DNA of 48,512 nucleotides, from the IMG/VR virus record IMGVR_UViG_3300042197_004825, positions 1 through 48,512 of that record. One strand, written 5' to 3'. This document shows positions 14,879 through 45,300 of this stretch, in pieces; position 1 is the first letter of the stretch; every line of letters starts with the position of its first letter. A program made the translations under genes and the position numbers. The notes under the pieces are model-generated. The model saw only the letters and a list, made by a program, of their open reading frames with translations. It was not told where the DNA came from and ran no database searches. Source of the stretch: a virus.

Positions 14879-15907
14879 ATGGACAATATAATAAATTGCA
14901 AAAATAACAGACTTTTTGGTGTTGAAATAGAAGTAAACACCGCAGATGGCAAGATAAAAAAATTAAACAAAAATGAAATACCGCTCGGGTCAGACCGTAT
15001 CGCTTTGCTGATAAATAAAGCAATAAAAAAAAGAGTGGAAATACAAGGTTGGGATTATAATTTTCATAATAACTATTGGATAGTAAAGCCAGATTCTAGT
15101 TGTGGAATAGAAATATGCACTCCAGTGATGAGGGGTTGGAAAGACTTAAAAGATCTAATTAAGGTCGCTGAAAATTTATCTTTTAACAACATCAAAGCGG
15201 ACCATAGGTGTTCCTTGCATGTTCATGTAAACGTAGGAGATTTGGATAAAAATCAAATAGCATCCATTATATCTTGGTATATTAAATGTGAACATGTAAT
15301 AATGGACGCATTTCCTTTAATTAGAAAAAAAAACAGATACTGCCAGATGATAGCCGATAATGATTCGTTAAGTGTAAATTCTCCTTTAAATCCTTTTTTT
15401 CTTTTAGAAAAAATATCTAATGTTAAGTATTACACTTTAAACGCTTATCACTTTCTTAAAGGCGGAGGTTTTGATCTGTTTAATAGTAGAAAAAAAACTT
15501 TAGAGTTTAGGTTGGGCGAAAATGAAATGTGCTTAGACGGTTTTAGTATTAAAAATTGGGTAAGATTTTTGCTTCATTTTGTAGATTGCACAAAAGATCT
15601 TGGATTGCCAAAAAAATATGTAAAAAATGACAAATTAAGTGGTCTTTGTTTATTAGACCCTGAGGACGTATTTAAAATATTAAAATTTGACAAACCTTGC
15701 TCAAAGGGATTTGAGCAGATGAAGGTTTGGTTTTTTGAAAGAATTTTAAAATTTTCTAGTGAAAATTCAAAACAGGGTATCTGGTCAGAAGCAGCTAGGA
15801 AAAAATCTAGAAAAGAATCTTTAAACTTTTTTAATAATTTGAAGATTAAAAATAATCAAAAACAGGATAAAGACATTTTGCTGTATCACGAAAACTATAT
15901 CGAATAA
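14879..15907 (+). CDS. Putative amidoligase (Amidoligase_2 family)
   Basis: The protein has the family order of motifs. RLFGVEIEVN is at residues 11-20, followed by WIVKPDSSCGIEICTPVMRG, the metal-binding CSLHVHVNVG, an IKCEHVIMDAFP helix, and KKTLEFRLGEN near residue 210. These belong to the glutamine-synthetase/carboxylate-amine ligase fold, which makes peptide-like amide bonds using ATP. Family members are found in phages and mobile elements and are thought to tag proteins or cell-wall components. The target here is unknown. The 342-aa length is typical. The next gene begins 16 nt downstream and is probably co-transcribed. Confidence 0.8.
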   Translation: MDNIINCKNNRLFGVEIEVNTADGKIKKLNKNEIPLGSDRIALLINKAIKKRVEIQGWDYNFHNNYWIVKPDSSCGIEICTPVMRGWKDLKDLIKVAENLSFNNIKADHRCSLHVHVNVGDLDKNQIASIISWYIKCEHVIMDAFPLIRKKNRYCQMIADNDSLSVNSPLNPFFLLEKISNVKYYTLNAYHFLKGGGFDLFNSRKKTLEFRLGENEMCLDGFSIKNWVRFLLHFVDCTKDLGLPKKYVKNDKLSGLCLLDPEDVFKILKFDKPCSKGFEQMKVWFFERILKFSSENSKQGIWSEAARKKSRKESLNFFNNLKIKNNQKQDKDILLYHENYIE

Positions 15908-25481: not shown

Positions 25482-25703
25482 ATGGACGCTTTCTTAGAAG
25501 GATTAAATTTAAATCAAATCAAAGGTTTTTTAGTTGGTAAAGAAATATTTATTGATAGTAAATTTTTGAATTTTTTAGTCGATAACCAAACTGATGATTG
25601 TTCTCGTATTTGGGCAAACACCATTTTGATAATTCTGTTGAAAGAAAAACAAAATATTCTTAAGATCAATTATGTCAAGCCAGATCTCGATTTGGGATCA
25701 TGA
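25482..25703 (+). CDS. Hypothetical protein, 73 aa
   Basis: Small unrecognised protein (MDAFLEGLNLNQIKGFLVGK start) with a hydrophobic stretch WANTILIILLKE that may be a helix. GGAGG before the ATG is a strong ribosome-binding site. Its 3' end overlaps the convergent FmdB-like gene by 34 nt. Confidence 0.6.
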   Translation: MDAFLEGLNLNQIKGFLVGKEIFIDSKFLNFLVDNQTDDCSRIWANTILIILLKEKQNILKINYVKPDLDLGS

Positions 25704-26035
25704 ATTCCTTCTCCTAAATTTAAATCCTTCTCTACATTGTTTTTACCATATGGATTTGATCCCATGTGCGATAACGCCTCTGCCATTTCTCTTTCTTTTT
25801 TAACTTTTGGTATATTGTGTTTAAATCGATAATCATGACCAGTAGTTGAACTGTTCCACCGATCTGTCCCTACCGGATTTGAAAAACTAAAATTGCTACT
25901 AGTGGCTAATTTTAGTTTTTCCTTAGATCCGCAAAAAGGACACTCAACGGATGGGTATATGTTTTCCTCATCATAATTACTTAATTCATCAAACTCTTTT
26001 TGGCATTTTTTGCATTCAAATTTATAAATTGGCAT
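25670..26035 (-). CDS. FmdB-family zinc-ribbon protein
   Basis: The start MPIYKFECKKCQKEFDEL, followed by VECPFCGSKEKLKL, gives the CxxC...CxxC ribbon that defines FmdB-type putative regulators. The remaining 70 residues are polar and probably disordered (KKEREMAEALSHMGSNPYGK). The role is unknown, and DNA or protein binding through the ribbon is plausible. It is the last gene of a three-gene minus-strand operon. Confidence 0.8.
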   Translation of the reverse strand: MPIYKFECKKCQKEFDELSNYDEENIYPSVECPFCGSKEKLKLATSSNFSFSNPVGTDRWNSSTTGHDYRFKHNIPKVKKEREMAEALSHMGSNPYGKNNVEKDLNLGEGIHDPKSRSGLT

Positions 26036-26036
26036 A

Positions 26037-26366
26037 TTATTCTTCTTTCTTATCCTCTTCTTTATGCTTTTCAGTTATTTCTATTAACTTAAAAAATGTT
26101 TTTTCTATAATTTTTAGTTTATCATCAATGTTTGTAAAGTTCCAAAACCAACTACTTTTTGCTATATTTATTGATTTTTCTAATATACCTTGATTGATTT
26201 TGCTTTGATCTATATCCATATGCATAACATCAAGAATTCCTTGTTGATCCATATAACCAACGACTTCTTCGTCAATTTCTTCTTCATCGTCATAATATTC
26301 GTTTTCTTCGTTAAAAAATGATTCCTTTTCATCATTTTGTTCATCGTCATCGTAAAATCTTTCCAT
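26037..26366 (-). CDS. Hypothetical acidic protein, 109 aa
   Basis: The first 40 residues are extremely acidic (ERFYDDDEQNDEKESFFNEE and then YYDDEEEIDEE). A folded helical part with WFWNF follows. TGAGG lies 6 nt before the ATG at 26366, just after the upstream stop. A longer in-frame reading to 26516 exists but runs inside the upstream gene, so it is not used. The acidic head might mimic DNA, but this is only a suggestion. Confidence 0.6.
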   Translation of the reverse strand: MERFYDDDEQNDEKESFFNEENEYYDDEEEIDEEVVGYMDQQGILDVMHMDIDQSKINQGILEKSINIAKSSWFWNFTNIDDKLKIIEKTFFKLIEITEKHKEEDKKEE

Positions 26367-26374
26367 TTTTGACC

Positions 26375-27046
26375 TCATTTTATTACTTGATAAAGTGGAA
26401 CCATTTTTCTCCATAAATTTATTACTCTTGTTTCGTTCGCTGTCATCTCGGAGGTAACCAACCCACCAGCGTTTGAAAAAGGACATCCTTTCGCTGTATT
26501 TATCCATCTGCCACACCCTTTCTTATAACTTACTAGGCAGTTAATCGCTTGTGTTTCTTTGGCTTCAACACAAATATTTTTTGAATTTATTTCTATTTTT
26601 TTTTCTTCTAAAAAGTATTCATTTATATTTTCTTTTATATTGATGTTGTTAACAAACCAAACATTTTCTTCTATTAAAAATTTTGATTTATTCAAAAAAT
26701 CTAAAATATTTTCACTTAAACAATCAATTGCTAAAACAAATGGATTTATGATTAAAAAAGGATCTTTTAAATTGTTGTTATTTTTGATTGAGTCTAATGC
26801 GTGAAGCCAATTTAAAAAAAATGGACCATCCTCAGAGAAGGGATTAGATTTTAAACATGGAATTTTAAGCCTCTTAGCCCACTGGAAGTACGAGAATGGA
26901 ACCTCTTTGTTTCTTTGGCAATAAATCATTACATTAGACTCTGGCATGTTTACGTAGAAAGAATACCAACAGGCAAAACTCTGCCAGTCATCTCCGCTTT
27001 CCGTCATTATTAAAATGTTTAAATTCTTACCTGTTTTTGAAACCAT
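26375..27046 (-). CDS. Hypothetical protein, possible glycosyltransferase-like fold, 223 aa
   Basis: The N-terminus has a strand-turn pattern (NLNILIMTESGDDWQSF, then SNVMIYCQRNK) like a nucleotide-sugar transferase of GT-A type, and a middle PFLIINPFVLAIDCLSENIL segment. No DxD metal motif is evident, so the resemblance is weak. It is the first gene of a minus-strand operon. It diverges from the thyA leader region. Confidence 0.5.
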   Translation of the reverse strand: MVSKTGKNLNILIMTESGDDWQSFACWYSFYVNMPESNVMIYCQRNKEVPFSYFQWAKRLKIPCLKSNPFSEDGPFFLNWLHALDSIKNNNNLKDPFLIINPFVLAIDCLSENILDFLNKSKFLIEENVWFVNNINIKENINEYFLEEKKIEINSKNICVEAKETQAINCLVSYKKGCGRWINTAKGCPFSNAGGLVTSEMTANETRVINLWRKMVPLYQVIK

Positions 27047-29321: not shown

Positions 29322-30710
29322 ATGGATGTTGTCGATAAATTTTTAAAAAATAATAGAAACAAAAAAATTAAAATTCATTGCATTGGCGATGCAATTATAG
29401 ATGAATATTATAACGTAAAAGTAGACAGAATCAGTCCCGAACATCCTGTTCCGGTTATGTCTTGTCAAAATGAACACGTTTCTAGACCTGGGGGCGTGGC
29501 TAATGTTGCCTATCAATTAAAGCATCTCAATGTTGATTCGATTCTCACATGCTTTCCCGATAGCAATGCTTTAAATTTGTTTCAAAATCATAATATTAAA
29601 ACAAAATATAAAGAAATATCCGCAAAACCTATTATTCCTACAAAAAGAAGATACTTAGACGATGACGTTCAGGTTGCTCCAAGACATGATTTTGAATTTC
29701 CTTTTTGCAATTTAAAACACGATGATGTTGATGACTACTCTCTTTTTGTTAAACAAGCAATAATCGAAGAAAAGCCCGATGTGATAATCCTATCAGATTA
29801 TAATAAAGGTTTTTTTTCAAGTGAAAATTATAAGATAGTTGATTTTTGTAAAGGCATAAAAACTATAGTTGATCCAAAAAAAGGACCATTAGAAAAGTGG
29901 AAGGGCTGCACTATTTTTAAACCTAATTCAAAAGAATCCTTTGAATTGACGGGCAAAAAAGATTGGCATGATCAAGCAAAGTTTTTATATGATTTTCTTG
30001 AATGCGAATCAGTTGTAATTACTTTTGGTGGCGAAAAAGTAGTTGGAATTTATAAAGAAGATTTTTTTGAATTTTATCCAAAAAACAAAGTATCTAATGT
30101 TCAAAGTGTTATAGGTGCCGGTGATTGTTTTGTGGCTTTTTTTGCAACGGCTGTAGGGCATGGCTTTAACCCAATAGAATCTTCAGAGATTGCTTGGGCA
30201 GCAGGATCTGTTTATGTTCAACACAAAAAGAATCGTCCTGTTGTTCCGGCAGAACTTTCTGCCAGTAAGATAGTTTATCCAGAGGATTTAAACTCAAGAG
30301 ATTTTAAATTAGTTTTTACCAATGGTTGTTTTGATATTTTGCATAAAGGTCATATTGAGACACTTAAATTTGCTAGAAGCAAAGGCGATAAATTAGTTGT
30401 TGCTTTAAACTCAGACGAAAGTATAAAAGTTATAAAAGGACGAGACAGACCTGTTGTCCCTCTCGAACAACGCATAGCCGTTATGGCTGCTATTCAATAC
30501 GTAGATTTTGTTGTTGTTTTTGATGAAACTAATCCTCTAAATTTGATTAAAAAAATACAGCCTGATGTTGTTGTCAAAGGATCTGAATATGATTTAGATT
30601 CTATTGTTGGTCACGATATTGTTAAAGAAGTTTATCAATCGCCCATGGTGCCAAATGTTAGTACTAGCATTATTCTAAAAAATCACTTTTTTGAACAAAC
30701 GCAACCCTGA
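29322..30710 (+). CDS. hldE: Bifunctional heptose 7-phosphate kinase / heptose 1-phosphate adenylyltransferase (HldE-like)
   Basis: The N-terminal part (about 1-315) is a ribokinase-type sugar kinase with RPGGVANVAYQL (55-66), LSDYNKGF and the catalytic GAGDCF (265-270). The C-terminal part is a nucleotidyltransferase with TNGCFDILHKGH (333-344, HxGH motif) and VVVKGSEYD. This two-domain order and the 462-aa length match HldE, which makes ADP-glycero-manno-heptose for LPS core. The phage copy could modify host LPS, feed the GT9 enzyme at 35.9 kb, or produce ADP-heptose for another glycosylation. It starts 3 nt after the small membrane gene. Confidence 0.9.
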   Translation: MDVVDKFLKNNRNKKIKIHCIGDAIIDEYYNVKVDRISPEHPVPVMSCQNEHVSRPGGVANVAYQLKHLNVDSILTCFPDSNALNLFQNHNIKTKYKEISAKPIIPTKRRYLDDDVQVAPRHDFEFPFCNLKHDDVDDYSLFVKQAIIEEKPDVIILSDYNKGFFSSENYKIVDFCKGIKTIVDPKKGPLEKWKGCTIFKPNSKESFELTGKKDWHDQAKFLYDFLECESVVITFGGEKVVGIYKEDFFEFYPKNKVSNVQSVIGAGDCFVAFFATAVGHGFNPIESSEIAWAAGSVYVQHKKNRPVVPAELSASKIVYPEDLNSRDFKLVFTNGCFDILHKGHIETLKFARSKGDKLVVALNSDESIKVIKGRDRPVVPLEQRIAVMAAIQYVDFVVVFDETNPLNLIKKIQPDVVVKGSEYDLDSIVGHDIVKEVYQSPMVPNVSTSIILKNHFFEQTQP

Positions 30711-30881: not shown

Positions 30882-31706
30882 ATGACTAATAAAATTGGTT
30901 TTTGCTTTACTGGAGAGGGTGCTAGAGGATCAATACAATCCGGAATCGCTTTGGGACTTCATAAACAAGGAATAAACGCCGATTTTACTATCGGAATATC
31001 GTCCGGATCTATATGTGCTGCTTCTTATGCTTATCTAGGACCACAAGGGGTTGCCGACATGTGGTCAAACATAAAAAACATTTTTGATGTTTTTGGCTTT
31101 AATTATAATTTTTTTTGGAAGTCCGGTTTGTTTAATCAAAGGCCCATGGAGAAAATTGTAAGAAAAGCTGTTCAAAATCAACCTATATGTGAAAGTGTTG
31201 TTGTAAGAATGAAAATTGAAAATGGTTATATGGACTATGTTTCAAACGCATCGGTTAATAAAGATGATTTTATCGAGGCTGTTTTGGGGAGTGTGGCCAT
31301 CACTGCTCTTGTTGAAGATAGAGATGGTTGGGTGGACGCAGGAAGCAGGCAATTGGCCCCTCTAGAACAATGTATAGCAGCGGGCTGCAATAAAATTTAT
31401 GTTATTATGGGTAGAAGATTTGATATTGATGAGTGGGAAAAACCAAAAGGTTTTTTATCGGCTACAAAAATGGCCTATCGTGCTTTGGATATAAGTCTTA
31501 ATGAAATAATGATGAGAGATATAAATTTTTGTCTAAAAAATGAAGATAGTCCCGGTTATCAAGGCGTTGAAATACATTTAGTTCAACCAAAAGAAACACT
31601 ATTTGAGTCGGTTAGTTTTAATCGTTGCAAGGAAGGCGTAAAATATGGTGAATTTAATTTCGAAACTACGGATAGAAAAGCATTAATGAAATATTTCTCT
31701 TTATAA
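30882..31706 (+). CDS. Patatin-like phospholipase
   Basis: The protein shows the oxyanion-hole loop TGEGARG (10-16), the GxSxG nucleophile elbow GISSG (38-42, Ser40), and a later DGWVDAG that supplies the catalytic Asp of the Ser-Asp dyad. These define patatin-type lipid acyl hydrolases. No signal peptide is seen, so the enzyme acts from the cytoplasm or is injected. It could attack host membrane lipids during lysis or serve in defence or competition. The 274-aa length is typical. The ribosome-binding site lies in a palindrome shared with the divergent lipoprotein gene. Confidence 0.82.
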   Translation: MTNKIGFCFTGEGARGSIQSGIALGLHKQGINADFTIGISSGSICAASYAYLGPQGVADMWSNIKNIFDVFGFNYNFFWKSGLFNQRPMEKIVRKAVQNQPICESVVVRMKIENGYMDYVSNASVNKDDFIEAVLGSVAITALVEDRDGWVDAGSRQLAPLEQCIAAGCNKIYVIMGRRFDIDEWEKPKGFLSATKMAYRALDISLNEIMMRDINFCLKNEDSPGYQGVEIHLVQPKETLFESVSFNRCKEGVKYGEFNFETTDRKALMKYFSL

Positions 31707-32031: not shown

Positions 32032-32564
32032 AATTTAAAGATTATTGTGTGGATTGTGATTTTTTAAATCCTAAATTTTTTGAACAAAACTTTTTTACCT
32101 TTAAGGATTTTAAAAAAAATTTAAATAGTTCAATAAATTTGAAAGGGCCAAGCTCTGTCAGAAGATCTTTGGCTGCTGGAAAAGTTAGAAGTCCTTCAAG
32201 GCCGGTTGTGTTTTCTTCTTTAAATAAGCCCCCCGTTATCCCCTCTGTTTTGGAAAATAAAGGTATCAATTCGTGTTTGCAAAAAAATGTTGATTTTGTT
32301 GTAAACAAAATCAAGGATCATCACGAAAGACTTTCAAAAAAATACAATTCCACTTTAGCAACAATGATCATATCTGCTGCCTTAATTGGTTCTTTATTTC
32401 CTATTCCTGGTGCTACACTTTTTTCTTGTCTTCCTTTTTTAGGTTTGGCAGAAGCGATGAACTTTCTGAAAAAAAATCCTAAAATGCTTAAAAAAATAGA
32501 TTTGTTCTACTCCGCTGATAAGCAAGATGTTGAAAAAGACGCAATTCAAATTGATGTCTTGTAA
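32028..32564 (+). CDS. Hypothetical protein with a hydrophobic segment, 178 aa
   Basis: It starts MKFKDYCVDCDFLNPKFFEQ, with the FKDF repeat a little later (TFKDFKKNL), so it may belong to the tagged group. Residues about 110-145 (TLATMIISAALIGSLFPIPG and following) form one or two membrane helices. It is coupled to the upstream gene by ATGA. Just before its end lies the -35 box of the prkA promoter. Function is unknown, and a membrane-inserting injected protein is possible. Confidence 0.55.
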   Translation: MKFKDYCVDCDFLNPKFFEQNFFTFKDFKKNLNSSINLKGPSSVRRSLAAGKVRSPSRPVVFSSLNKPPVIPSVLENKGINSCLQKNVDFVVNKIKDHHERLSKKYNSTLATMIISAALIGSLFPIPGATLFSCLPFLGLAEAMNFLKKNPKMLKKIDLFYSADKQDVEKDAIQIDVL

Positions 32565-32587
32565 TTAATTTAAAAACACGTTATAAT
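32559..32587 (+). promoter_or_regulatory. Strong sigma70-like promoter of the prkA-yeaH-GT9-spoVR operon
   Basis: TTGTAA (32559-32564) and a perfect TATAAT (32582-32587) are separated by the optimal 17 bp. The prkA ATG at 32625 follows with AAGGAG. It is one of the best promoters in the window and sits directly in front of the stress-type operon. Confidence 0.75.
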
Positions 32588-32624
32588 TAATTGAACACAC
32601 TTGATTAAAAGCAAGGAGCACTAA

Positions 32625-34712
32625 ATGTCTGACAAATCATCGGCCCTTAAAAAATACTCTGATCTTTATGATCGTAAAGAATTTTTGTCTTTAAATGAAG
32701 AAATGTCTTTTGGTGAATATTTAGATCTATGTCGAGAAAAGCCAAAACTAGCCAGAAATGCTTTTCAATATGTTTACGACATGATAGTTGAAAAAGGCAC
32801 CAGCACATTTGAGAGATATAGAAAAACTTATACCAAGTATCATTTTTTTGACGACAATGAGATACCAGTTTTTGGCTTAGAAGAAACGTTGTCAAGTTTT
32901 GTTGATTTTATTCATGGAGCCGCTGGTGGCTACGGCACCGAACGCCGTGTTTTGTTATTGCACGGGCCAGTTGGTTCTTCAAAATCAACAATTTGCCGCA
33001 GGCTTAAACGTGGATTGGAACAATATTCAAAAACGCAGGAAGGTGTTTGGTATACCTTTAAATGGGTAGATCTGCCTGTTGTTGCGGACGATAAAGGACC
33101 GGCTGTTTTTGTAAACAAAGAAGACGTTTGTCCAATGAATGAAAACCCAATTAAACTCATGCCCGGATCGATGAGAAAAGAATTTTTGAAAGATTTAAAT
33201 GAAAAATTAAAAGATTCCTCATCGGAAGCCGAGCGAGAAACCCTTTATGTGCTTGATAGTGAGGGTGACTTAAATCCTAGATGTAAACTTTTTATGTCGA
33301 TGCTTTTAAAGAGATACGATGGTGATTGGACGGCAGTTGTTGAAAACCATGTTAGAGTAATTCGTCGCACCCACTCTGAGACCGATAGGGTTGGAATTGG
33401 AACTTTTCAACCTAAAGATGAAAAAAACCAAGACTCAACAGAGTTAACTGGCGATATGAATTTTAGCAAGATAGGTCAATTCGGCTCAGACTCTGATCCT
33501 CGTGCTTTTAATTTTGATGGCGAATTTGAAATTGCCAATCGTGGCGTTTGTGAATTTATTGAAATGCTCAAACTTGATAATGCTTTTCTTTATGATCTTT
33601 TGGGAGCAACTCAAGAGCATTCTATTAAACCAAAGAAATTTTCTCAGGTTAACATAGATGAAGTTATCGTTGCTCACACCAACAACCCAGAATTTGAAAA
33701 ATTAAAAAATAATCAATTCATGGAAGCACTAAGAGATAGAACTGTTAAGGTGGATGTTCCTTATCTCTTACGTTGGAGCGACGAGATTAAAGTTTACGAA
33801 CACACCTATGGTCCAGGTAAAGTTCGCCAACACATCATGCCTCACACTCTTGAGATAGCCGCTTTATTTGCTGTCTTAACTCGATTGGAAGATGACGGCA
33901 ATGGCAAACTTGATTTGCGAGATAAGGCTAAACTTTATGATGGAAAGCAACTCCCAGGCTGGACAGAGGACACCGTTAAGGAATTGCGTGATAAATTTCC
34001 AGATGAGGGTTTTCACGGTCTTTCGGCAAGATATGTTCAAGACAAGATTGCAAATCGTCTTGCTCGTCACAAAGATTACTTGAATGTTTTTCATGTTTTG
34101 AGTGAACTTAAAGATGGTCTAAGTCAATCTTCTTTGATCACTAAGGTAGAAGATATTAAGAGATACGAATTTTGTGCAGAATTGGCAATCAAAGAATTGG
34201 ATGAAATCTTGAAAAATGAAGTTCAACGTGCTTTAGTTTCAGATGAGAAGGCTATTGAGCGTATGTGTTCTAAGTATGTTGATAACGTAATAGCTTACGT
34301 TAACGATGAAAAAATGATTCACCCAATAACAGGATCTAAAATGGATCCCGATGAAAGACTGATGCGTTCTATTGAAGAAAAAGCAGGCATACCAGAGCAA
34401 GGTTGCGATGATTTTAGAAGAAGTTTGGCTGCTTTTATAGGTACACTTGCTACTCGTCAAAAACAATTCAAGTGGGACAGCAATCCTGAGTTAAAGCGTG
34501 CTTTAGAGTCTAAAGTTTTCGAAGATGTTAAGGACACTATTAAATTGTCTTCTTTAACAAAAGAAGCTTCTCAATTAGACCCAGATCTTCAAGAAAAAAT
34601 AGACGCTATTAAAACAAGATTGATAAAGCAGTACGGATACAATCAACAATCAGCAACCGATGTGCTCGAATACTGTAGTTCTATCTTCGCCCGAGGGGAT
34701 ATTCAAAGATAA
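32625..34712 (+). CDS. prkA: PrkA/YeaG-family AAA+ serine protein kinase
   Basis: The 695-aa protein has the PrkA N-terminal region (EEMSFGEYLDLCREKPKLAR), an AAA+ Walker A GPVGSSKS (114-121), and the family segments LDSEGDLNPRCKLFMSML, IDEVIVAHTNNPEFEKL and VPYLLRWSDEIKVYEHTYG. In bacteria PrkA works with YeaH and SpoVR in stationary-phase, nitrogen-stress or sporulation responses. It is reported as a Ser/Thr kinase or ATP-dependent protease regulator. Here it leads an operon with both partners. It is slightly longer than bacterial homologues. AAGGAG lies upstream of the ATG. Confidence 0.9.
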   Translation: MSDKSSALKKYSDLYDRKEFLSLNEEMSFGEYLDLCREKPKLARNAFQYVYDMIVEKGTSTFERYRKTYTKYHFFDDNEIPVFGLEETLSSFVDFIHGAAGGYGTERRVLLLHGPVGSSKSTICRRLKRGLEQYSKTQEGVWYTFKWVDLPVVADDKGPAVFVNKEDVCPMNENPIKLMPGSMRKEFLKDLNEKLKDSSSEAERETLYVLDSEGDLNPRCKLFMSMLLKRYDGDWTAVVENHVRVIRRTHSETDRVGIGTFQPKDEKNQDSTELTGDMNFSKIGQFGSDSDPRAFNFDGEFEIANRGVCEFIEMLKLDNAFLYDLLGATQEHSIKPKKFSQVNIDEVIVAHTNNPEFEKLKNNQFMEALRDRTVKVDVPYLLRWSDEIKVYEHTYGPGKVRQHIMPHTLEIAALFAVLTRLEDDGNGKLDLRDKAKLYDGKQLPGWTEDTVKELRDKFPDEGFHGLSARYVQDKIANRLARHKDYLNVFHVLSELKDGLSQSSLITKVEDIKRYEFCAELAIKELDEILKNEVQRALVSDEKAIERMCSKYVDNVIAYVNDEKMIHPITGSKMDPDERLMRSIEEKAGIPEQGCDDFRRSLAAFIGTLATRQKQFKWDSNPELKRALESKVFEDVKDTIKLSSLTKEASQLDPDLQEKIDAIKTRLIKQYGYNQQSATDVLEYCSSIFARGDIQR

Positions 34713-34741
34713 TCAATAATTATTTAACATTATAAACATTA

Positions 34742-35938
34742 TTGAGAGCGAGGTGTGCTATCCCTAAAAGAATTCAAGAAGATCATAAAAGATTCAGGGA
34801 CGTAGTTTCCGGAAGAACAAGAAGGGAACTTAAACGTTTCATTAAATCAGGTGCGATAGTTCGGCAAAGGCCGAAAGGTGGCAAGGTTACTATTTCCATT
34901 CCACAAATTGACATTCCACACTTTGTTCATGGTGACTCAGGTGAAGGGATTGGTCGGGGTCCGGGGAAAGAAGGTGATACTATTGGCCGTGACCCACAGC
35001 CCGGTAATGGCAATCAAGCTGGAGATCAAGAAGGCGAGGGCATCCATATTCAAATCGACATGGAAGATGTTCTTGCTTTTATGGAAGAAGAGTTAAAACT
35101 TCCATTTATGAAACCTAAGCCGAACGAAACATTTGAAGAAGTTAAGATCAAGTATAATGATATTTCAAAAGTTGGTCTTAACTCATTGCGGCACACACGC
35201 CGCACAATGAAAGAAGCATTGAAGCGTCTGGCGATGGGAGGCAAGTTGGACCAAGTCCAACTTGTCCCCGGAGCCAGCGTTCCAATGAAGGTTATAACCC
35301 CAATTAAACAGGATTTTAGATATAGGCAATATCGTGAAATAAAAATACCAGCATCCAATGCTGTTATATTTTTTGCTAGAGATTGTTCTGGGTCAATGGA
35401 TGATTATAAGTGTGATATAGTTTCAGATATGGCTTGGTGGATAGACCGTTGGATAAAAAGATTTTATAAAAGAGTAGATCATTGTTATTATGTTCACGAC
35501 ACACGTGCTCAAGAAGTTAATGAGCAAGAATTCTATACTTATAGATACGGGGGAGGAACGCAATGTTCCTCAGCATTTGAATCAATATCCCATCAATTTG
35601 AAAATAGATATCCTCCTCAAAAATTTAACATTTATGTTTTTTATTTCACAGATGGAGATAATTGGGATAATGATAATGAAAGAGTAGTAAAAATAATTCA
35701 AGAAAAATTTCCTCAAGGAGTTGTAAACTTCGTAGGAATAACTCAAATTTGTTCATACTTAAATGAAAAAAGTGTAAAAGAATTTATTGATCGAAAAATA
35801 AATTCAAATGAACTTGACGCAGAACACATCAGAACTGCCGAAGTTGGATCAAATCTAAGAAATGGCAAAATGAGTGAAGATGATCGAAACAGCCAGATTC
35901 TAGATGCCATTAAAAAACTTTTATCTGTAGAAGCATGA
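34742..35938 (+). CDS. yeaH: YeaH/YhbH-family (DUF444) VWA-domain protein
   Basis: The N-terminal part has FIKSGAIVRQRPKGGKVTIS and a Gly-rich linker at 64-100. The second half has a VWA MIDAS motif DCSGS (214-218) preceded by AVIFFAR, and a later FYFTDGDNWDNDNE. These are the features of DUF444. The 398-aa length matches. The start is uncertain. The TTG at 34742 has no ribosome-binding site, while a strong GAGGTG at 34750-34755 lies just inside the frame and no ATG or GTG in frame follows at the right distance. A mutated start or an atypical codon (ATC or ATT) is possible. It overlaps the next gene by ATGA. Confidence 0.88.
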   Translation: MRARCAIPKRIQEDHKRFRDVVSGRTRRELKRFIKSGAIVRQRPKGGKVTISIPQIDIPHFVHGDSGEGIGRGPGKEGDTIGRDPQPGNGNQAGDQEGEGIHIQIDMEDVLAFMEEELKLPFMKPKPNETFEEVKIKYNDISKVGLNSLRHTRRTMKEALKRLAMGGKLDQVQLVPGASVPMKVITPIKQDFRYRQYREIKIPASNAVIFFARDCSGSMDDYKCDIVSDMAWWIDRWIKRFYKRVDHCYYVHDTRAQEVNEQEFYTYRYGGGTQCSSAFESISHQFENRYPPQKFNIYVFYFTDGDNWDNDNERVVKIIQEKFPQGVVNFVGITQICSYLNEKSVKEFIDRKINSNELDAEHIRTAEVGSNLRNGKMSEDDRNSQILDAIKKLLSVEA

Positions 35939-36945
35939 GTGATCAAAAGTTTAAAGAATTTGTTGACCAAGGTGTTGCGGCAGCAAATAATTATTTTCAT
36001 ACTGGCAGATACGCCAATGCTTTGGAGATACTATCAGCCGTTAAACAGGTTGATTCGAACAATGATATTGTTGAATTACTTATTCAAAAAATTTGTTGTG
36101 AACAATTCAATATCAAATCCCCAGATTTAAATTATTATTTTGGAGAACACTGGCTTGGTCAATCGCTAGAAAACAAAAGTATAGAAATTTTTTGTGACCA
36201 AGGAATGGGAGACACAATAAATTTACTTCGTTATGTAAAACAATTAAAGAAAGAATATCCTAATTGTAAAATTGTTTTAAATTATTATGCTTTTTTTAAT
36301 CAATTTGAAAGGTTGATGCAAAATCAACCTTACATTGATTTATTTACTCCTTTTCATACTAAGTGTGATTATCATACAAACATAATGAGTTTACCTTGTA
36401 TTCTTAATGGAATACAACTTGATATTTATTACCCTGTTCATTTTGATAAAATATTAAATCTACCTCCGCCACCTCAAATTTGCTTTGAAGAATTTGAATC
36501 TTTAAATCTAAGTGATAAAAATAAAATAGGTTTGGTTTGGCAAACAAATATAGATAATCCATTATCTAAACAAAAATCAATAAATGTTGATCTTTTTGAT
36601 ATTTTTAAAGATTTAGATTTTGAATTTTATTGTTTACAACCGCAGGCTGAGATTCCCAATTGGATCAATTGTTTGCCAATTGAAGACCTACACGACACAG
36701 CCAGATTCATAATGCAATGCGATTTTGTTATTTCTGTAGACACGGTTGTGCTGCATCTTGCTGGGGTTTTGGGTAAAAAAACTTTTGGATTAATTCCTCT
36801 AGATCATGATCCTAGATGGGGTAAAGATTCGGATAATATCTGGTACCCATCGGTAGAGTTGTTTAGACAAAACAATGATTATGATTGGTGTATTGCCTTA
36901 AATCAAATAAAAGATAAAATAAAAATTTTAAAGGACAAAAAATGA
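35935..36945 (+). CDS. TPR plus glycosyltransferase family 9 (heptosyltransferase-like)
   Basis: The first 60 residues form a TPR-like pair of helices (ANNYFHTGRYANALEILSAV). The rest is a GT-B enzyme with FCDQGMGDTINLLRYVKQLK, then KIGLVWQTN and the nucleotide-sugar site FVISVDTVVLHLAGVLGKKT, ending with IWYPSVELFRQ. This arrangement occurs in bacterial TPR-GT9 proteins related to LPS heptosyltransferases. With HldE encoded 5 kb upstream, the donor could be ADP-heptose, which is inference. It overlaps yeaH and spoVR by 4 nt each, so it is embedded in the stress operon rather than inserted at random. Confidence 0.8.
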   Translation: MSDQKFKEFVDQGVAAANNYFHTGRYANALEILSAVKQVDSNNDIVELLIQKICCEQFNIKSPDLNYYFGEHWLGQSLENKSIEIFCDQGMGDTINLLRYVKQLKKEYPNCKIVLNYYAFFNQFERLMQNQPYIDLFTPFHTKCDYHTNIMSLPCILNGIQLDIYYPVHFDKILNLPPPPQICFEEFESLNLSDKNKIGLVWQTNIDNPLSKQKSINVDLFDIFKDLDFEFYCLQPQAEIPNWINCLPIEDLHDTARFIMQCDFVISVDTVVLHLAGVLGKKTFGLIPLDHDPRWGKDSDNIWYPSVELFRQNNDYDWCIALNQIKDKIKILKDKK

Positions 36946-38546
36946 ATAAATCTAAAATGATGAGCGGATCTCCTATTCTGACTGGGGACAACAACATTCC
37001 GGGTCTGAAGATTCACAAAGAAGTTTTAGAAGTCCTTCCTCAAATAGAAGAAGCTTGTCATAAGATGGGCTTAGATTATTTTCCCATTATTGTTGAGTTT
37101 GTTCGTTACGATGAAATGGCCGAGTTGGCTAGTTATGGAGGGTTCCCTGTTCGCTATCCTCATTGGCGATTCGGTATGGAATACGAAGAGATGGCTCGTG
37201 GTTACGAACACGGTCAATACCGCATATCAGAAATGGTAATCAATGCTTCCCCCTGTTACATATATTGCATGGATTCAAATACTTTAGTTGATAATGTTGA
37301 TGTTATAGCACACGCTATTGGACATAATGATTTTTTTAAGAATAATATATTTTTTGAGCCAACAGATGAAAACATGATGAACAAGTTGGCAAATCATGGC
37401 ACAAGAATCAGGAAATACATGGCCCGTTGGGGGCATGAAGTTGTCACAGAGTTTATAGACCACTGTTTAAGGTTGGATACTTTAATCGATCCTCACAGGG
37501 CTTGGCGAAAAAAGAAGATCAAAGAATCGGTTGTTCGTGATGAAAGAAAATATCAACATCCTAAGCGTTTAAAATCGCAAAACAACTATATGGATGAGTG
37601 GGTTAACAGCAAGGACTATATTGATCAGCAAAATGAAGATATCAAAAAACAAGAAACCGCTCATTTTCTTGATATCTTCGAGGGATCTTGTAAGGATATT
37701 CTTGGTTACTTAAAAGACAACGCTCCTTTAAAGCCCTGGCAGCAAGATATTATCTCTATGCTTTATGATGAAGCTATGTACTTTAGTCCGCAACGTGCGA
37801 CTAAAATGATTAACGAAGGGTGGGCTAGTTTTGTAGATTATCATATTCTTTGCAGGATGGGATTGGCATCGCTAGGCCAACCTAGTGAAGATGCTGGCAT
37901 TTGGCATTACGCAGAACACAAAATGAGAGTTTTAGGAGGAAAGTATAGCCAAAATCCTTATAAACTTGGTTTTGAATTGTTTTTAGATATAGAAGATCGT
38001 TGGAACAAAGGAAAGTTTGGTGATGATTGGGAAAATTGTGATAATATACACGAAAAAGAAAATTGGGATAAAAAATTAGGCTTAGGTATGGAGAAAATTT
38101 TTGAAGTAAGAAAAAACTATAATGATTTTTTAATGATCCAGGAATTTTTCACACCAGAGTTTTGTGAAAAGAAACAGTTTTTTGAGTGGAAACACTTTCC
38201 TAATGGCGAATATAAAATTGTAAATCGTGATTTTAAAAGTATTAAAAAGAAATTACTGCAAAAATACTTAAATGCAGGTCTTCCTGACATACGTCTACTA
38301 GACCCGAATCATTTGGGCAAAGGTTGGTTTTACATGGAGCACCAATCAGACGGCAGAACGCTTTATGATAGTTACGCTCGTGAGACCATCACATCCATAC
38401 AGAAAATTTGGAAAAATGTTGTAGTTTTGTCTACCAAAAATAAAGATGGAATTGAGTGTGTTTATGTTTGTGACGGGTCTCAGCAAGACAAAAATGTTCA
38501 TTACATGACTAGAGAAGAATATGAAAAAGAATTTCTAAATAATTAG
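36942..38546 (+). CDS. spoVR: SpoVR/YcgB-family protein
   Basis: The protein contains the SpoVR pattern: MAELASYGGFPVRYPHWRFG, EEMARGYEHGQYRISEMVIN, the His-rich VDVIAHAIGHNDFFKNN, and later TKMINEGWASFVDYHILCRM and NPYKLGFELFLDIEDRW. The length of 534 aa is typical. SpoVR proteins act in spore cortex formation or, in Gram-negatives, in stress with PrkA and YeaH. The molecular role is unknown. It is the third partner of this operon in the phage. ATGA overlap with GT9 shows tight coupling. The metallophosphatase gene starts one base after its stop. Confidence 0.92.
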   Translation: MNKSKMMSGSPILTGDNNIPGLKIHKEVLEVLPQIEEACHKMGLDYFPIIVEFVRYDEMAELASYGGFPVRYPHWRFGMEYEEMARGYEHGQYRISEMVINASPCYIYCMDSNTLVDNVDVIAHAIGHNDFFKNNIFFEPTDENMMNKLANHGTRIRKYMARWGHEVVTEFIDHCLRLDTLIDPHRAWRKKKIKESVVRDERKYQHPKRLKSQNNYMDEWVNSKDYIDQQNEDIKKQETAHFLDIFEGSCKDILGYLKDNAPLKPWQQDIISMLYDEAMYFSPQRATKMINEGWASFVDYHILCRMGLASLGQPSEDAGIWHYAEHKMRVLGGKYSQNPYKLGFELFLDIEDRWNKGKFGDDWENCDNIHEKENWDKKLGLGMEKIFEVRKNYNDFLMIQEFFTPEFCEKKQFFEWKHFPNGEYKIVNRDFKSIKKKLLQKYLNAGLPDIRLLDPNHLGKGWFYMEHQSDGRTLYDSYARETITSIQKIWKNVVVLSTKNKDGIECVYVCDGSQQDKNVHYMTREEYEKEFLNN

Positions 38547-38547
38547 T

Positions 38548-39315
38548 ATGGAAAATATTCCTCAAATTAGAACTCTCTTCATATCAGACGTTCACTTAGG
38601 AAGTAGACACTCTTCTACAAAAAATTTATTAGAATTTTTAAATTACATAAAAGAAAATCATAAAATAGAAAAAATTTATATTGTTGGCGATTTTATAGAT
38701 GGTTGGAAATTAAAAAGAAACTGGTACTGGAACGACGAGTCTAGTTTGGTTCTTAGAAAAATATTGAGTTTTTTAAGAAGAAATGTTGAAATTTATTATG
38801 TGGCAGGTAATCATGACGAATTTATTCGTATATTTATAGAAGATTTTCACATAGGTGATTTTGGATCTATTCACATAGGCAATGAATTTATTCACAACAC
38901 CGTGGACGGTAAAAAATTTTTGGTTATTCACGGCGATATTTTTGATTTTGCAACAAAGTATGCAAAATGGTTGTGTTTTTTAGGAGATATAGGCTATAGT
39001 TTACTTTTGAGACTAAATAAATTGGTATCTTTTGTAAGATCTAAATTTAAATTAAAAAATTGGTCTCTAAGTAAGGCTATTAAACACAATGTCAAACACG
39101 CAGTCAACTTTATAAGCGATTTTGAAAATTGTTTAATTTCTTATTCTAAAGATAAAAAATGCGATGGTTGCATCTGCGGCCACATCCACACCGCCGATTT
39201 AAAAACTATGTCCGATGGCTTTGTTTACGCCAACACCGGCGACTGGGTGGAATCATGCACTGCTGTTTATGAAGATTTTGATGGGAAACTACATTTATTT
39301 AATTTTTTAAATTAG
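38548..39315 (+). CDS. LpxH-like metallophosphoesterase (UDP-2,3-diacylglucosamine diphosphatase family)
   Basis: All metal motifs of calcineurin-type phosphoesterases are present: FISDVHLGS (D14, H16), VGDFIDGW (D48), AGNHDEF (87-92), VIHGD (H128) and CGHIHTA (210-216). The spacing and the CGHIHTADLK and YANTGDWVESCTAVYE blocks match the cytoplasmic group usually annotated as UDP-2,3-diacylglucosamine diphosphatase, linked to lipid A synthesis. Many members have other substrates, so the exact activity is uncertain. It is the last gene of the prkA operon and converges with the giant adhesin gene 28 nt away. Confidence 0.82.
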   Translation: MENIPQIRTLFISDVHLGSRHSSTKNLLEFLNYIKENHKIEKIYIVGDFIDGWKLKRNWYWNDESSLVLRKILSFLRRNVEIYYVAGNHDEFIRIFIEDFHIGDFGSIHIGNEFIHNTVDGKKFLVIHGDIFDFATKYAKWLCFLGDIGYSLLLRLNKLVSFVRSKFKLKNWSLSKAIKHNVKHAVNFISDFENCLISYSKDKKCDGCICGHIHTADLKTMSDGFVYANTGDWVESCTAVYEDFDGKLHLFNFLN

Positions 39316-39343: not shown

Positions 39344-42300
39344 TCACGCTGGATTTAATCTTCCTATAGATTCTAAAAAGATTCTTAATGCATTATCAAA
39401 ATCATCAACCTCTGTTTGCGTTAATGATGACCCAACAGAATAAAAAGATATATTGCCTGCTCCATTGCCTGCTATTCCTGTAGAATCAGTTCCAAATCCA
39501 AATATTGTAAAACTAGAAGTAATAGTGCCAGATATTGTCTCAGGAGCTAGGGTGTAAGTATTGTTAGTTCCCCTGATATTAATAATAATTCCAGAATTAG
39601 TTCTACTAGCAATCGCTCTAGTTGGAAAAGAACTTCTAAAACTAGGAATATTAATACTATCAGTCGAATGACATACGCTAAAGTCTACTGCTGAAAAAAT
39701 ACCAACACTAAGTTTAAATATTCCTGGTAAATTCCACCCTATATCTGGATTTCCTGGACCGCCACTACTCCATTGAGCAGCAACAGCGAAGTGTGCTGTT
39801 TGTAAAGAAGGAAGCATTGTAGTTTTTAATCCTGTATCAAGTTTTCCGCTGCCGCCTCCGCTTCCTATGCCTTTAGAGGATAGAGAGGACAGAGAATCGT
39901 TGTAAGAAAAAGATGTATTATTGACATCATAATAGTTACCTAATAGAGTATTTGTATTTGGTCCCCTATAAAGAGGGACTAGTGCCGCCGCCAGATTACT
40001 TCCGCACATAAGATTTAATCTGTATATTTTACTTCTAATTCCAATACTATCTATAGTATTTGCAAATACATTAACAGCATCAGCAGTACTAGTAGAGATT
40101 GTTCCACCGTTGGTGTATGCAGCATCTATCCATCTCTTTACTTCTGAGTTTGTCACAGCGGTGAACGTGTTGCTAGGCTTTCCTCTATTAAGAGCATCAT
40201 TAAATGAATCTATGATAGAAGTCAAAGTAGAAATTTCTGAACTACTTAGATTAAGTCCGATTGTATATAAAGATAGTCTAGCATCAGTATGAGATGTACC
40301 AGAATTATTTTGTCCTATTTTTTGAGCAAATACTCCTATGGAAGTTGTGTTTGATGTGGAATATGATGGTCTATTATTACTAGCTATGACATCTGCATAT
40401 AATTTATTGTTATTATCGCTATCAGACACTCCAATTACAAATGTTTTTTCCGCTATTGGTAGACTAATACTGACAGATAATTGGCCAGAATCACTCCCTG
40501 TCAAATAAGAAACTGTTGTTGTGGTCCCATCTGTTTGTATTCTGGTATCACTAATAAAATCCGATGCCGTATTTGCTTTCGCCCCCATTATTACTCTATA
40601 AGCGACAGAGGGTAGCTTGTTCATCACAAATCCAAAATGTTTATACGTTGCAAAATTCTGTGATAATCCGGTATCTAGCCATTTAGTTGAACCATTGCCT
40701 ATTAATCCACTATTTTCATTAAAGTCAGAAGATATAAAATTATTATTACTGTCGGAAACTGGATTCCCGTATATGAGTGTCCTATCCGTTCCTCTGTATA
40801 ATGGAACTAAACATGCGGCTAAATTATTGCCACAAAATAGATTCATTCTATAGAATTTATTACGTAAATTATTGGAATTTATACTATCGCATAATGTATT
40901 CACAGCACTAGCAGTAGCAGTACTAACTGTACCTCCATTGCTATAAACATTATCAATCCATATCTTAGCATCTTCGTTTGTTACAGAAGCGAACTGTGAA
41001 CTTGGTCTAGTTCTACCCATTTCCGCATTAAATGAGACTAAAGCATTATTAAATGCCGATACTTCTTGGGTTGTTAATCCCAGTCCTATATGATACATAG
41101 AAATGCGACCATTGCCGTAGCCGGTTATAGTGCCGTTATTGTTGTTAGCATGAATGACAAATCCTATGAAGCCCCTAACAGCGGCAGCCGAGTTAGATGT
41201 TGTTCCTGATATACCATTCCATCCATGAAAGTAACTACTACCGGATATTCTAGAGTAGATATGATGACCAGTCAATATAGAGTTGTTTGGGGCACTAGGA
41301 TAGAAGGTGGTTCCGTCAAGACCTCTGGTAAAACCGTCTCTATAATAGAGAACAGTACTGTTCGTATTAGTATTTTGTGCTACTCCCAAATATGTTGAGA
41401 ATGCGGTTTCTGTTGGACTAGTAATAAAAGCGCCAAATGATAAACTGCTACTATTGGTAAAATCTGTACCGAGTCCAGTTGCCAGATATTTGTTTAAGCC
41501 ATTCCCCTTGATTCCTGATAATATACCACTCTCATTATAATCCGAAATAGTAATATTATTAGGTATATCGTATAAGAATCCCCTTTGCGGCCCTGTTCTG
41601 CTGTCTCCCCTGTACAGTGGCACAGTACATGCTTCTAAATTATCTCCGCAAAATAAATTGAGTCTATAAAATCTGCTTCGTATGCCAGCCGAGTCTATGC
41701 TATTGCAGAAATTTTGTACTGCGGTTGCGGTAGCCACACTAACGGTTCCTCCATTTTTATATACTCTGGTTAGCCAATCCCTGGTATCAAGATTGGTTAT
41801 AGAGTCAAATTGAGATCCTAGTGTCGGGTCAATATTTGCTCTAGATAGGGCGGCTTGAAAAGTTTGCATAATATCATAATATGACTCTACATCAGAAGAA
41901 GAAAGAGATGTTCCTATTGAATATCCTTGAAGTCTATCTAAATAATTAAATAATGCTATTCCATTGTTCTGTCTATATTCTCCAAAAATACCAATGTCAG
42001 AAGCTGTAGTTGGATTCAGAGCGTATGTAGATGTCAAATCTCTCTGTCCTAACACGTTGGCTCTGCCCTCATATGCAGTAAGAACATAACCAGAATAATT
42101 ACCTATATACAAACCTTTATTGCTAGGATACAAGGTGGTTGTAGAAGTATTTGTAAAGTTTAATAGGGCATTAGCGAATGCCCCCACATTATATCCCCCA
42201 ATTCCTATTTGTAGCGAAAAACCTGTACTGCCACTATCATAAGCTCCGATAGGATACCCGCCAACAGTTAAAGATTTAGTATACACAGCACTATGTAAAT

Positions 42301-45300
42301 TATTGTTTAATTCTGTTACCGAACCTGTTATAAGTCCTGTCCTGAGATATCTTCTTGAGATGAAACCGTTCCCAGAAATATCTTGTGTATTTCCTAATAG
42401 ACCATCTGATTCGGAATAATCAAAATTATTAGAGCCTGCTGTGTTTAAAACATTTATATCTCTTGCGTTTCCGTATCTAATTCCTAATCTACTAGGGCCT
42501 CTATACAATGGTACCAAGCAAGAGGCTAAATTACCCCCGCAGAATAAATTAATTCTATAGAATTTATTGCGTAATCCTGCCGCATCCATGCTGTTGCAGA
42601 AATTATCAACAGCCAAAGCAGTAGCAGAGCTTACTGTTCCTCCATTAGCATAAACGGCATCTATCCAAGATTTGGTTTCTTCGTTGGTCACAGAAGAGAA
42701 CTGAGCAGAAGATCTGGTTGGTAGACCTCTACCGAGACTAGTTTGAAAAGATTCCATTATGGTGTTATATTGAGATACCTCTTGCTGTGTCATGCTTTGA
42801 CCAACGCTATATCCCTTAACATAACCGAAGTAATAATTAGGCCCCGACGCAACCGACCCATTGGTGCTGGTAAAAATACCTATAGTTGATGTTTGCTCCG
42901 GTATCGTTATTGACCCAGTTTGTGAACCTCTAAGAACACCAGCCTCATAGGACTTCATGTCACTGGATGAATTTCTAGTCAGTATATACAAACCTCCGAA
43001 ATACGCACTTTCTATACTATTAAATTCCCCGTAGTACGACAGAGTACTATTCGATCCCTGCAAGGCTATTAAAGTGTTTCCGGCCCCAATAATTGGTCTA
43101 TTTCCAGCATTATAGGGATTAGTATCAAGATTAAATTGTGTTTGATAAAATGCCATATGTCCAGTACTAGATAAGCCCATATCGCTCAAACTTACACCTG
43201 TTAATAGATATATTCCATTGCCTCCGGTAGATGAGCCTGGACCCGCTATCAAGCCATTTTTTTCATCGTAATTATTTTGAAAAAATCCCGTATTGCTTTC
43301 GGTTCTAAATCCATAAAATCGGTCGGAGTCTGGACCAAGGTATAGCGGGGTCAAACAAGCTTGCAGATCATTCCCGCAAAATAAGTTTAGTCTATAAAAT
43401 TTCTTTCTAAGACCGGCAGATTCTATTTGTTTACAAAACTCATTAACACTATCCGCAGTTTTTTCACTAACACTACCACCATTAGCGAATACCCGATCTA
43501 TCCAATTTTGAGCATCTTTATTAGAAACTTTTATTTTATGTCTTATAATAGCAGAACCTATACTATTAGGAGAAGAATATGATCCTATTCCCCATTTGGC
43601 AGACAAATAGTTCTCTACCGAGGCTCTTTCGGAGCTTGATAAGACTCTGTCATAGCGAATACATTCCGCTACATAACCTATCATTCTTCTAGAGTTCCAT
43701 CCTCCTCCGGTTCTGGCTCCTATTTGTATTCTATTTGTGGTTGTGCTAACAGATACTCCGGTACCGGTAAAGTTTTCTTCTAAATTGCCATTGGTGTAAA
43801 TCAAAGAATTTGATGTGTTGCTCTGGTTATAAACTCCCGTAATAATCCTAGGCAAACCCAACATACTAGAAGATGTATTGCTAGAAGATGTTGTTCCTGC
43901 TCCTGCTCCATCTAGGAATACTAAACAATCACCGGCTGCTGTAGATCCTATATAACAAAATCCGGGACCATTTAATCCTCCCGTATTATCTCCATGTGTA
44001 AATATACCAGAAATATCACCAGAATGAGAATCTATTCTACAAACAACAAATAAAGTACAAGGAGCAGAGTATAGCCTATTTACCTGAGACAATAGATCAT
44101 CTCCTCCATCAAAATAGATCATGGATTTGCCATTTTGTATGTTGGTTTTATAGGTGGGTCTAGCCGCAACCGTAGCTTGTATAACGTCTTGGCCACCAAC
44201 CTTATCGGCCCAGTATGCTACAGAATCGCCGTCTACTAATACCGGAGTAGCAGCATTAGGATCCTTAAACAAAGTGTCTATATCATCACAATCTAACCAC
44301 AAAGAACATCCACTAATATCCGTAGGCTTAGATATCATATTGGTAGCTTGGTCCAAATTCCATTTGTCGTGTAGGTATTTTTCTATTAGCTGTCTTTCTC
44401 CACCGGACAGGGCTCTATCATAAACAATAAATTCACCAATAATAGAAGTATTATATCCTTGTCCTGTATATGGTGAATTATATCCATTTAAGACAAACCA
44501 ACCATAATTAATACTTGCTTCTGTGCCAGCGCCAGAAGTAGATGTTGCTACACAGTCTACTCCATATCTATACAATTTTGTTTGATTAACTCCTGTACCT
44601 CCGCTACTTTTTATTAAACTTTCAACTATTGTTGTATTGGTGGGTAGTGGACGAGCATAAAAAACAGTATTCGTGCCGCCATAGGTTACTGTATTATTAG
44701 GATATCTAGAAATAAGTAAAAGGGCATCTTGAACACCATAAGTATAAACAGTAGTATTTGTGTTGTTTGTTCTATATACAACAAAAAAACTCCAAGACGT
44801 ACTTCCTAAAGGCTGTTGGGGAGTTTGCAAATATGCATTCGCTGATGATCTTGTAAAATCAAAAGCACTTCGACCATTTAGTGTTCCAATTCTTGGTCTA
44901 TTATGATGATTAATCTGAGAAAAATATGTGTTTAACGAGCCTTTATTTGGAATATATCCTATTCTATCGTTGGTTAGATTTGTTTTACCGTGCAAAGAAT
45001 TGCTAATACCCCATTTTCTAGCAAGATATTGCTCTACTCTGGCTCTATCCGCTGATCCGATGTCTCTATTATAGGATATTACCTCCACTATTTTACCGTT
45101 CATAACAACTCCACCAACACCGCCACTCCCTTGATCACTGAAGCCTATATAATGGGCCCATCCTCCGTTATATCCTAGTCCATTTTGTGTGTGCCAAACA
45201 TTACCATCTAATCGAACAGTCATATTAGAAGAATTGGCTCTCATAGAAGTTATGTGAACACCAGTAGTAGGTCCGACTATCTGTCCTGGTGTTGCTCTAG

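Follow-up and report, generated by a model that had tools for sequence, protein, structure and literature searches.

Why would a virus carry the three genes of a bacterial starvation and sporulation module, and what could they do for it? The question is raised by an IMG/VR virus record of 48,512 bases (IMGVR_UViG_3300042197_004825), here called the window, which encodes the proteins PrkA, YeaH (DUF444) and SpoVR in one neighbourhood. The answer that we find on balance probable, judging from comparisons of sequence, is that these genes form a working AAA+/vWA/SpoVR module adapted to phages, that this module is part of the core genes in one clade of huge tailed phages, and that it may serve to adjust the envelope or the stress physiology of the host. 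In bacteria the module is connected with starvation and sporulation and spoVR with the formation of the spore cortex, and such an adjustment is therefore the likeliest use of the phage copies. What the module does in bacteria is, however, itself poorly defined (PMC4664914, PMC13001217).

The identities of the three proteins, which a sequence-only reading of the window had taken from their motifs, are confirmed by Pfam, and the genes lie uninterrupted on the plus strand. PrkA matches PF08298 (AAA_PrkA; 4.2e-81, 273.2 bits) and PF06798 (PrkA C-terminal; 3.4e-71, 240.3 bits) against a cut-off of 25, it aligns with E. coli YeaG nearly end to end, over 591 columns, and its profile matches PDB 9xip, a solved PrkA-family structure named 'serine protein kinase'. 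Its Walker A motif is intact (GPVGSSKST), with G117, S118, K120, S121 and T122 invariant in 12 phage PrkAs. YeaH matches PF04285 (DUF444; 6.5e-65, 220.3 bits, cut-off 27) and stays below the equivalog cut-offs of the YhbH and PRK05325 models; the residues of its metal ion-dependent adhesion site (MIDAS), D214, S216, S218, T273 and D304 when counted from an alternative TTG start, are invariant in the alignment of homologues, and its AlphaFold2 model matches vWA folds in Foldseek (best E 2e-8). SpoVR matches PF04293 over its full length (2.6e-105, 352.9 bits, cut-off 27), lies below the cut-off of the NCBIfam SpoVR equivalog and aligns with E. coli YcgB over almost its entire length (E 7e-54), and H124, H128, N291-E292-G293 and A295 are invariant across phages and bacteria. 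A search by sequence found no solved structure related to YeaH or SpoVR.

The sequence-only reading had also placed the genes in a phage-type genome, and this is borne out. The virus record encodes a DnaB-type helicase, a gp32-like single-stranded DNA-binding protein, UvsX, a UvsW-like helicase, thymidylate synthase and dihydrofolate reductase, as well as a head-closure/endonuclease protein and virion structural genes. Through UvsX, which is 91% identical, we reached a much longer relative of 458,813 bases (IMGVR_UViG_3300023179_000009, hereafter the 459-kb relative), which is collinear with positions 9,256-39,312 of the window, most genes being 88-96% identical, and which carries both the trio and a gene for the terminase large subunit. 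The window is therefore part of the genome of a huge tailed phage.

The trio is a near-universal and highly constrained part of the core gene set of this clade. A scan of IMG/VR with PrkA found at least 131 stretches that encode relatives, and the best 80 of the 131 were analysed; the 459-kb relative is outside these 80 loci, and very near records may be omitted from that scan. The order prkA, yeaH, spoVR on one strand is kept in every one of the 77 untruncated loci, the window included, and the pairwise identities of the three proteins are correlated (0.91, 0.82, 0.78), as is to be expected of shared inheritance. When the proteins are compared with both phage and bacterial genomes, the phage sequences of the window's clade are monophyletic with full support and a long stem in the PrkA tree, made by a quick method, and in the SpoVR and YeaH trees, made by FastTree, the exact bacterial sister group being weakly resolved. 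The PrkA of the window is 56-88% identical to those of other phages, against 55% for the best bacterium.

SpoVR and PrkA are also among the most constrained genes of the window. Against the loci L002 and L003 synonymous sites were saturated for most genes, and the ratio of nonsynonymous to synonymous change (dN/dS, omega) was calculated against the 459-kb relative instead, where PrkA is 98.6%, YeaH 98.5% and SpoVR 98.3% identical, against 88-96% for most of the neighbouring genes. Omega is 0.017 for PrkA, 0.039 for YeaH and 0.010 for SpoVR, so that SpoVR has the second and PrkA the fourth lowest value of 35 genes, below UvsX, the single-stranded DNA-binding protein, the helicase and thymidylate synthase; in close pairs elsewhere in the clade the values are mostly 0.01-0.10. 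The intact motifs and the very low omega support the earlier suggestion that the system is functional, and because a whole lineage keeps the genes together and nearly unchanged, the trio probably matters during infection. It is scarcely credible that the genes are passengers or recent captures from a host, or that bacterial DNA has contaminated a viral contig. Bacterial homologues of each protein are indeed easy to recognise, that of PrkA being about 55% identical, and the record of Enterobacter phage LAU1, which we set aside as a precedent, does look like host flank, with a YeaG 97.7% identical to that of E. coli at the end of the record. The monophyletic phage clades with their long stem, the unbroken synteny, the closer phage relatives, the omega of 0.01-0.04 and the terminase-bearing contigs of up to 459 kb all contradict a bacterial chromosome, a misassembly or a lack of phage homologues, and for the window's clade the trees, the conserved gene order and the selection data refute this explanation.

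The same results bear on the proposal of the sequence-only reading that the trio could be a dormancy or persistence switch, which holds the host in a stationary-like state or moves it there. It is favoured by the finding that prkA is required for B. anthracis to sporulate normally and to survive osmotic stress (PMC13001217), but near-universal retention and very low omega are more in keeping with a constant task than with a switch that is used at need, and the annotated neighbours of the trio include no recognised toxin, antitoxin or lysogeny gene. We regard such a switch as quite unlikely.

From where did the phages obtain the genes? Bacterial prkA-yeaH(yhbH)-spoVR(ycgB) clusters contain the same three families, and most relatives in Chloroflexota, Myxococcota, Bdellovibrionota and Planctomycetota have them in the same order, whereas the phage copies form their own clade and the window's module is interrupted by a GT9-like gene; in E. 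coli, unlike in the window, ycgB is unlinked from yeaGH. The huge phage LR756511 (595 kb) belongs to the same clade as the window and has the same gene order, but in it no GT9-like gene separates yeaH from spoVR; some 2 kb downstream of its trio there is a transfer-messenger RNA gene (L162:21376-21728). The Thermus phages phiYS40, TMA, phiLo, MN1 and Lalka8 likewise have the trio in one neighbourhood, annotated as serine kinase, SpoVR and conserved bacterial/vWA protein, but in the order yeaH-spoVR-prkA, in a separate clade and with only about 30% (PrkA, YeaH) and 24% (SpoVR) identity to the window; in the plasmid collection their PrkA is nearer to Thermomicrobium and Paenibacillus (36-37%). 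The huge phages LR756502, LR745206 and LR756504 also encode PrkA, DUF444 and SpoVR proteins, and theirs are of a different origin, for their PrkA shares 62-65% of its residues with E. coli YeaG but only about 26% with the window's PrkA, and their SpoVR shares about 53% with YcgB. Since the copies in these two groups are nearest to other bacterial subfamilies, at least three phage groups have taken the trio from different bacterial subfamilies. In the Ralstonia jumbo phage RsoM2USA, ORF28 (SpoVR) and ORF30 (a PrkA-family kinase) are about 1.4 kb apart, both with gammaproteobacterial best hits, and a role in cell division was guessed for the SpoVR (PMC8504454); RsoM2USA was not among the matches in the phage collection that we searched. 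Phage copies have thus already been annotated piecemeal, in the Thermus phages and RsoM2USA, and in the literature searched we found no description of the trio as a constrained core set, of its repeated recruitment or of the SpoVR inteins.

How could such a module work? We hypothesize that PrkA assembles into an ATP-driven ring on which YeaH would dock through its vWA/MIDAS domain as a substrate adaptor, that the pair would remodel or activate SpoVR with its putative metal-dependent active site, and that the trio would adjust the envelope or the stress physiology of the host so that the long cycle of a huge phage can be completed in cells that grow poorly; of these steps the last is the least certain. 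It is known that vWA partners serve MoxR-type ATPases as substrate adaptors, and in the MoxR-type system RavA-ViaA the gene of an AAA+ ATPase lies beside a vWA/MIDAS gene, as in the window. In E. coli, yeaG, yeaH and double mutants have one common phenotype, from which it follows that the two genes work together (PMC4664914).

Several observations weigh against this scheme. The pairing of PrkA and YeaH as an AAA+/vWA couple is drawn from domain logic, and the likeness to RavA-ViaA, which has no SpoVR partner, is limited to the Walker A region, where hhalign aligns PrkA and RavA over 22 columns with a probability of 32%, and to a moderate match (57%) of YeaH to part of the vWA domain of ViaA; sequence comparison therefore does not support counting PrkA among the MoxR-type ATPases, and this placement was rejected. 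The PrkA of B. anthracis, purified as a monomer, showed negligible protease and kinase activity in vitro, yet formed oligomers with ATP (PMC13001217). The metal-dependent active site of SpoVR is a guess from its HxxxH and NEGxA motifs, which are suggestive only. The AlphaFold2 model of SpoVR is usable (pLDDT 80.9, pTM 0.76), but a zincin fold, or any other fold in the PDB, is not matched by it in Foldseek at E <= 0.001, its 1 viral match at that level being an unnamed 617-aa protein. In LR756502, finally, spoVR is far from prkA-yeaH.

A further feature of SpoVR is its inserts. One or two of them interrupt the gene, in frame, in 22 phage loci, or about a quarter of those with a phage SpoVR, and in the 7 loci that were searched for domains the inserts contain Pfam intein-splicing and LAGLIDADG domains, some of the splicing matches being below the curated cut-off. 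There are two sites, A after EMVIN (residue 101 of the window's intein-free protein) and B between NEGWA and S (295/296), both within blocks in which phages and bacteria hardly differ. Examples are L004:15850-18756, L015:12281-15097, L032:13185-17315 and L074:11054-15097, and sometimes both sites are occupied in one gene. Six bacterial SpoVR genes have inserts with the same site B junctions (Chloroflexota L082, L083, L084 and L088, Planctomycetota L129 and the deltaproteobacterium L147), recognised as intein-like by their ends, the domain search having covered the 7 phage loci. The common site B suggests either exchange between bacteria and phages or an ancient homing site. LR756504 (L165), which belongs to another group of huge phages, has a shorter insert near site B, and outside SpoVR the downstream DNA polymerase III alpha gene of one phage (L079:16439-19114) seems to bear an intein as well, with an in-frame insert that ends in SGLVHN before S. 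In the literature searched, SpoVR and inteins were not found together in any one paper.

A wider hypothesis, which we offer tentatively and which could well fail, is that large phages have recruited the PrkA/YeaH/SpoVR machine at least three times into a near-essential function during infection, and that SpoVR is the effector, whose constrained active-site blocks attract LAGLIDADG inteins in phages as well as in bacteria. If this is true, phages would be a system for solving the biochemical job of a widespread bacterial module. A phage lineage that has the trio among its slowest-evolving genes shows that the module is useful beyond sporulation and chromosomal stress regulons, and offers a reduced setting in which to study it; the separate version in cultured Thermus phages makes the question testable. 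The inteins mark candidate active-site blocks in SpoVR and may supply new splicing elements.

The organisation of the locus only partly agrees with the complete operon that had been described. The order and the common strand hold, but the uninterrupted adjacency of the trio fails in the window and its closest relatives, where a 336-aa gene, missed by the sequence-only reading, lies between yeaH and spoVR. The tight ATGA overlaps are present as well, at 35935-35938 and 36942-36945, but they join this gene to yeaH and to spoVR respectively, and prkA and yeaH do not overlap. The reading frame of yeaH has no ATG start; alignment of homologues puts the start at an ATC (34760), found also in L004 (L004:12678) and in the 459-kb relative (position 110443), while the start is TTG in L024 and L070 and GTG in L043. 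This suggests weak initiation, and in the window the TTG at 34742, given by the open reading frame finder, may be the start instead. A rare start codon thus appears to be kept at this one gene.

The near-consensus promoter noticed before prkA stood up to comparison. A scan for single sites was uninformative alone (42 such matches in the region against 34.5 +/- 5.7 in shuffles), but the stricter pattern TTGNNN-17-TATANT, of which the window has 4 sites including that of prkA, lies just 5' of prkA in 18 of 47 loci, whereas only 1.2% of windows drawn at random from these loci contain it, and the 459-kb relative has the prkA site unchanged. The putative promoter therefore recurs in related phages and is of the host sigma70 type. 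A host-type promoter would also suit a trio that counters host defence or a toxin-antitoxin response, its AAA+/vWA motor extracting or inactivating a host factor. Genes that act against host defence usually evolve fast and are retained in a patchy way, while the trio is among the slowest-evolving genes of the window, and no defence-related gene was recognised among its annotated neighbours. Unrelated large phages have, on the other hand, recruited the trio repeatedly, and YeaG of E. coli lowers the transcription of mqsRA and dinJ-yafQ (PMC4664914). We consider this role very improbable.

Could the trio instead serve virion assembly, with the AAA+/vWA pair as a chaperone for the assembly or maturation of head proteins and SpoVR as an adaptor or processing factor? 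In Lalka8 the trio has portal/minor head genes on one side and TerL on the other, in phiYS40 it adjoins the terminase, head-closure genes are close by in many loci, and in 21 of 47 loci spoVR is followed on its 3' side by a ClpP-like gene that matches families of head maturation proteases. In the 459-kb relative, however, the terminase is about 320 kb from the trio. The conserved 5' neighbours are ADP-heptose, zinc-ribbon and function-unassigned genes, none of them structural; the recurrent promoter is of the host type, and the bacterial module has no virion role. A role in assembly therefore seems unlikely, and we favour, with modest confidence, the adjustment of host stress or envelope over both virion assembly and a dormancy switch.

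The neighbouring genes are listed with the trio in Table 1. The 336-aa gene matches Pfam Glyco_transf_9 (9.5e-4) and NCBIfam heptsyl_trn_I (4.8e-5) below both cut-offs, has an omega of 0.084 against the 459-kb relative, and is found at the position between yeaH and spoVR only in the window, L002-L004, L006-L009 and the 459-kb relative. An HldE-like gene lies near prkA in 39 of 47 loci, and in L070 it adjoins a relative of the 336-aa gene (L070:2761-5012); because of this adjacency, and of the HldE-like gene upstream in the window, a link of the 336-aa gene to heptose transfer is plausible. The closeness of HldE-like and GT9-like genes in these phages hints at phage-encoded synthesis and transfer of ADP-heptose. 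The zinc-ribbon family is present in 45 of 47 loci, usually immediately 5' of prkA (median offset -1309 from the centre of prkA); in the window and the 459-kb relative the zinc-ribbon, acidic and roughly 200-aa genes are several kb upstream on the opposite strand, whereas elsewhere they mostly precede prkA. The phosphoesterase is below the cut-off of the LpxH models, and at its position after spoVR it is absent from the other IMG/VR loci and present in the 459-kb relative.

Table 1. Positions of the trio, its promoter-like site and neighbouring genes in the window.
Feature	Position	Strand	Description
FmdB-type zinc-ribbon gene	25670..26035	-	Pfam Zn_ribbon_8 2e-9
Small acidic protein gene	26037..26516	-	Family in 43/47 loci; no family match
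223-aa gene	26375..27046	-	Family (about 200 aa) in 36/47 loci, conserved prkA neighbour; no family match
HldE-like ADP-heptose synthesis gene	29322..30710	+	5' of prkA; NCBIfam HldE 1.2e-79, below cut-off
Sigma70-type promoter-like site	32559..32587	+	TTGTAA-17-TATAAT, 10/12 match, 5' of prkA
prkA	32625..34712	+	695 aa, AAA+ ATPase with PrkA C-terminal domain; uninterrupted
yeaH (DUF444, vWA domain)	34760..35938	+	392 aa from putative ATC start; uninterrupted
336-aa gene	35935..36945	+	Between yeaH and spoVR; TPR-like N-terminus by eye, weak GT9/heptosyltransferase match
spoVR	36942..38546	+	534 aa, uninterrupted, without intein
LpxH-like calcineurin-family phosphoesterase	38548..39315	+	Accessory, 1 nt past spoVR; Pfam Metallophos 1.3e-13

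Further along, the minus strand at 39344-47956 encodes a structural protein of 2,870 aa made of repeated modules, which has no match in the compared 36 kb of the 459-kb contig, although the genes to the left of it are collinear. A patatin-like phospholipase gene (30882-31706; Pfam 2.5e-9) lies 5' of the trio, and a gene of the amidoligase family (14879-15907; Pfam 3.2e-13) is 96% identical in the 459-kb relative.

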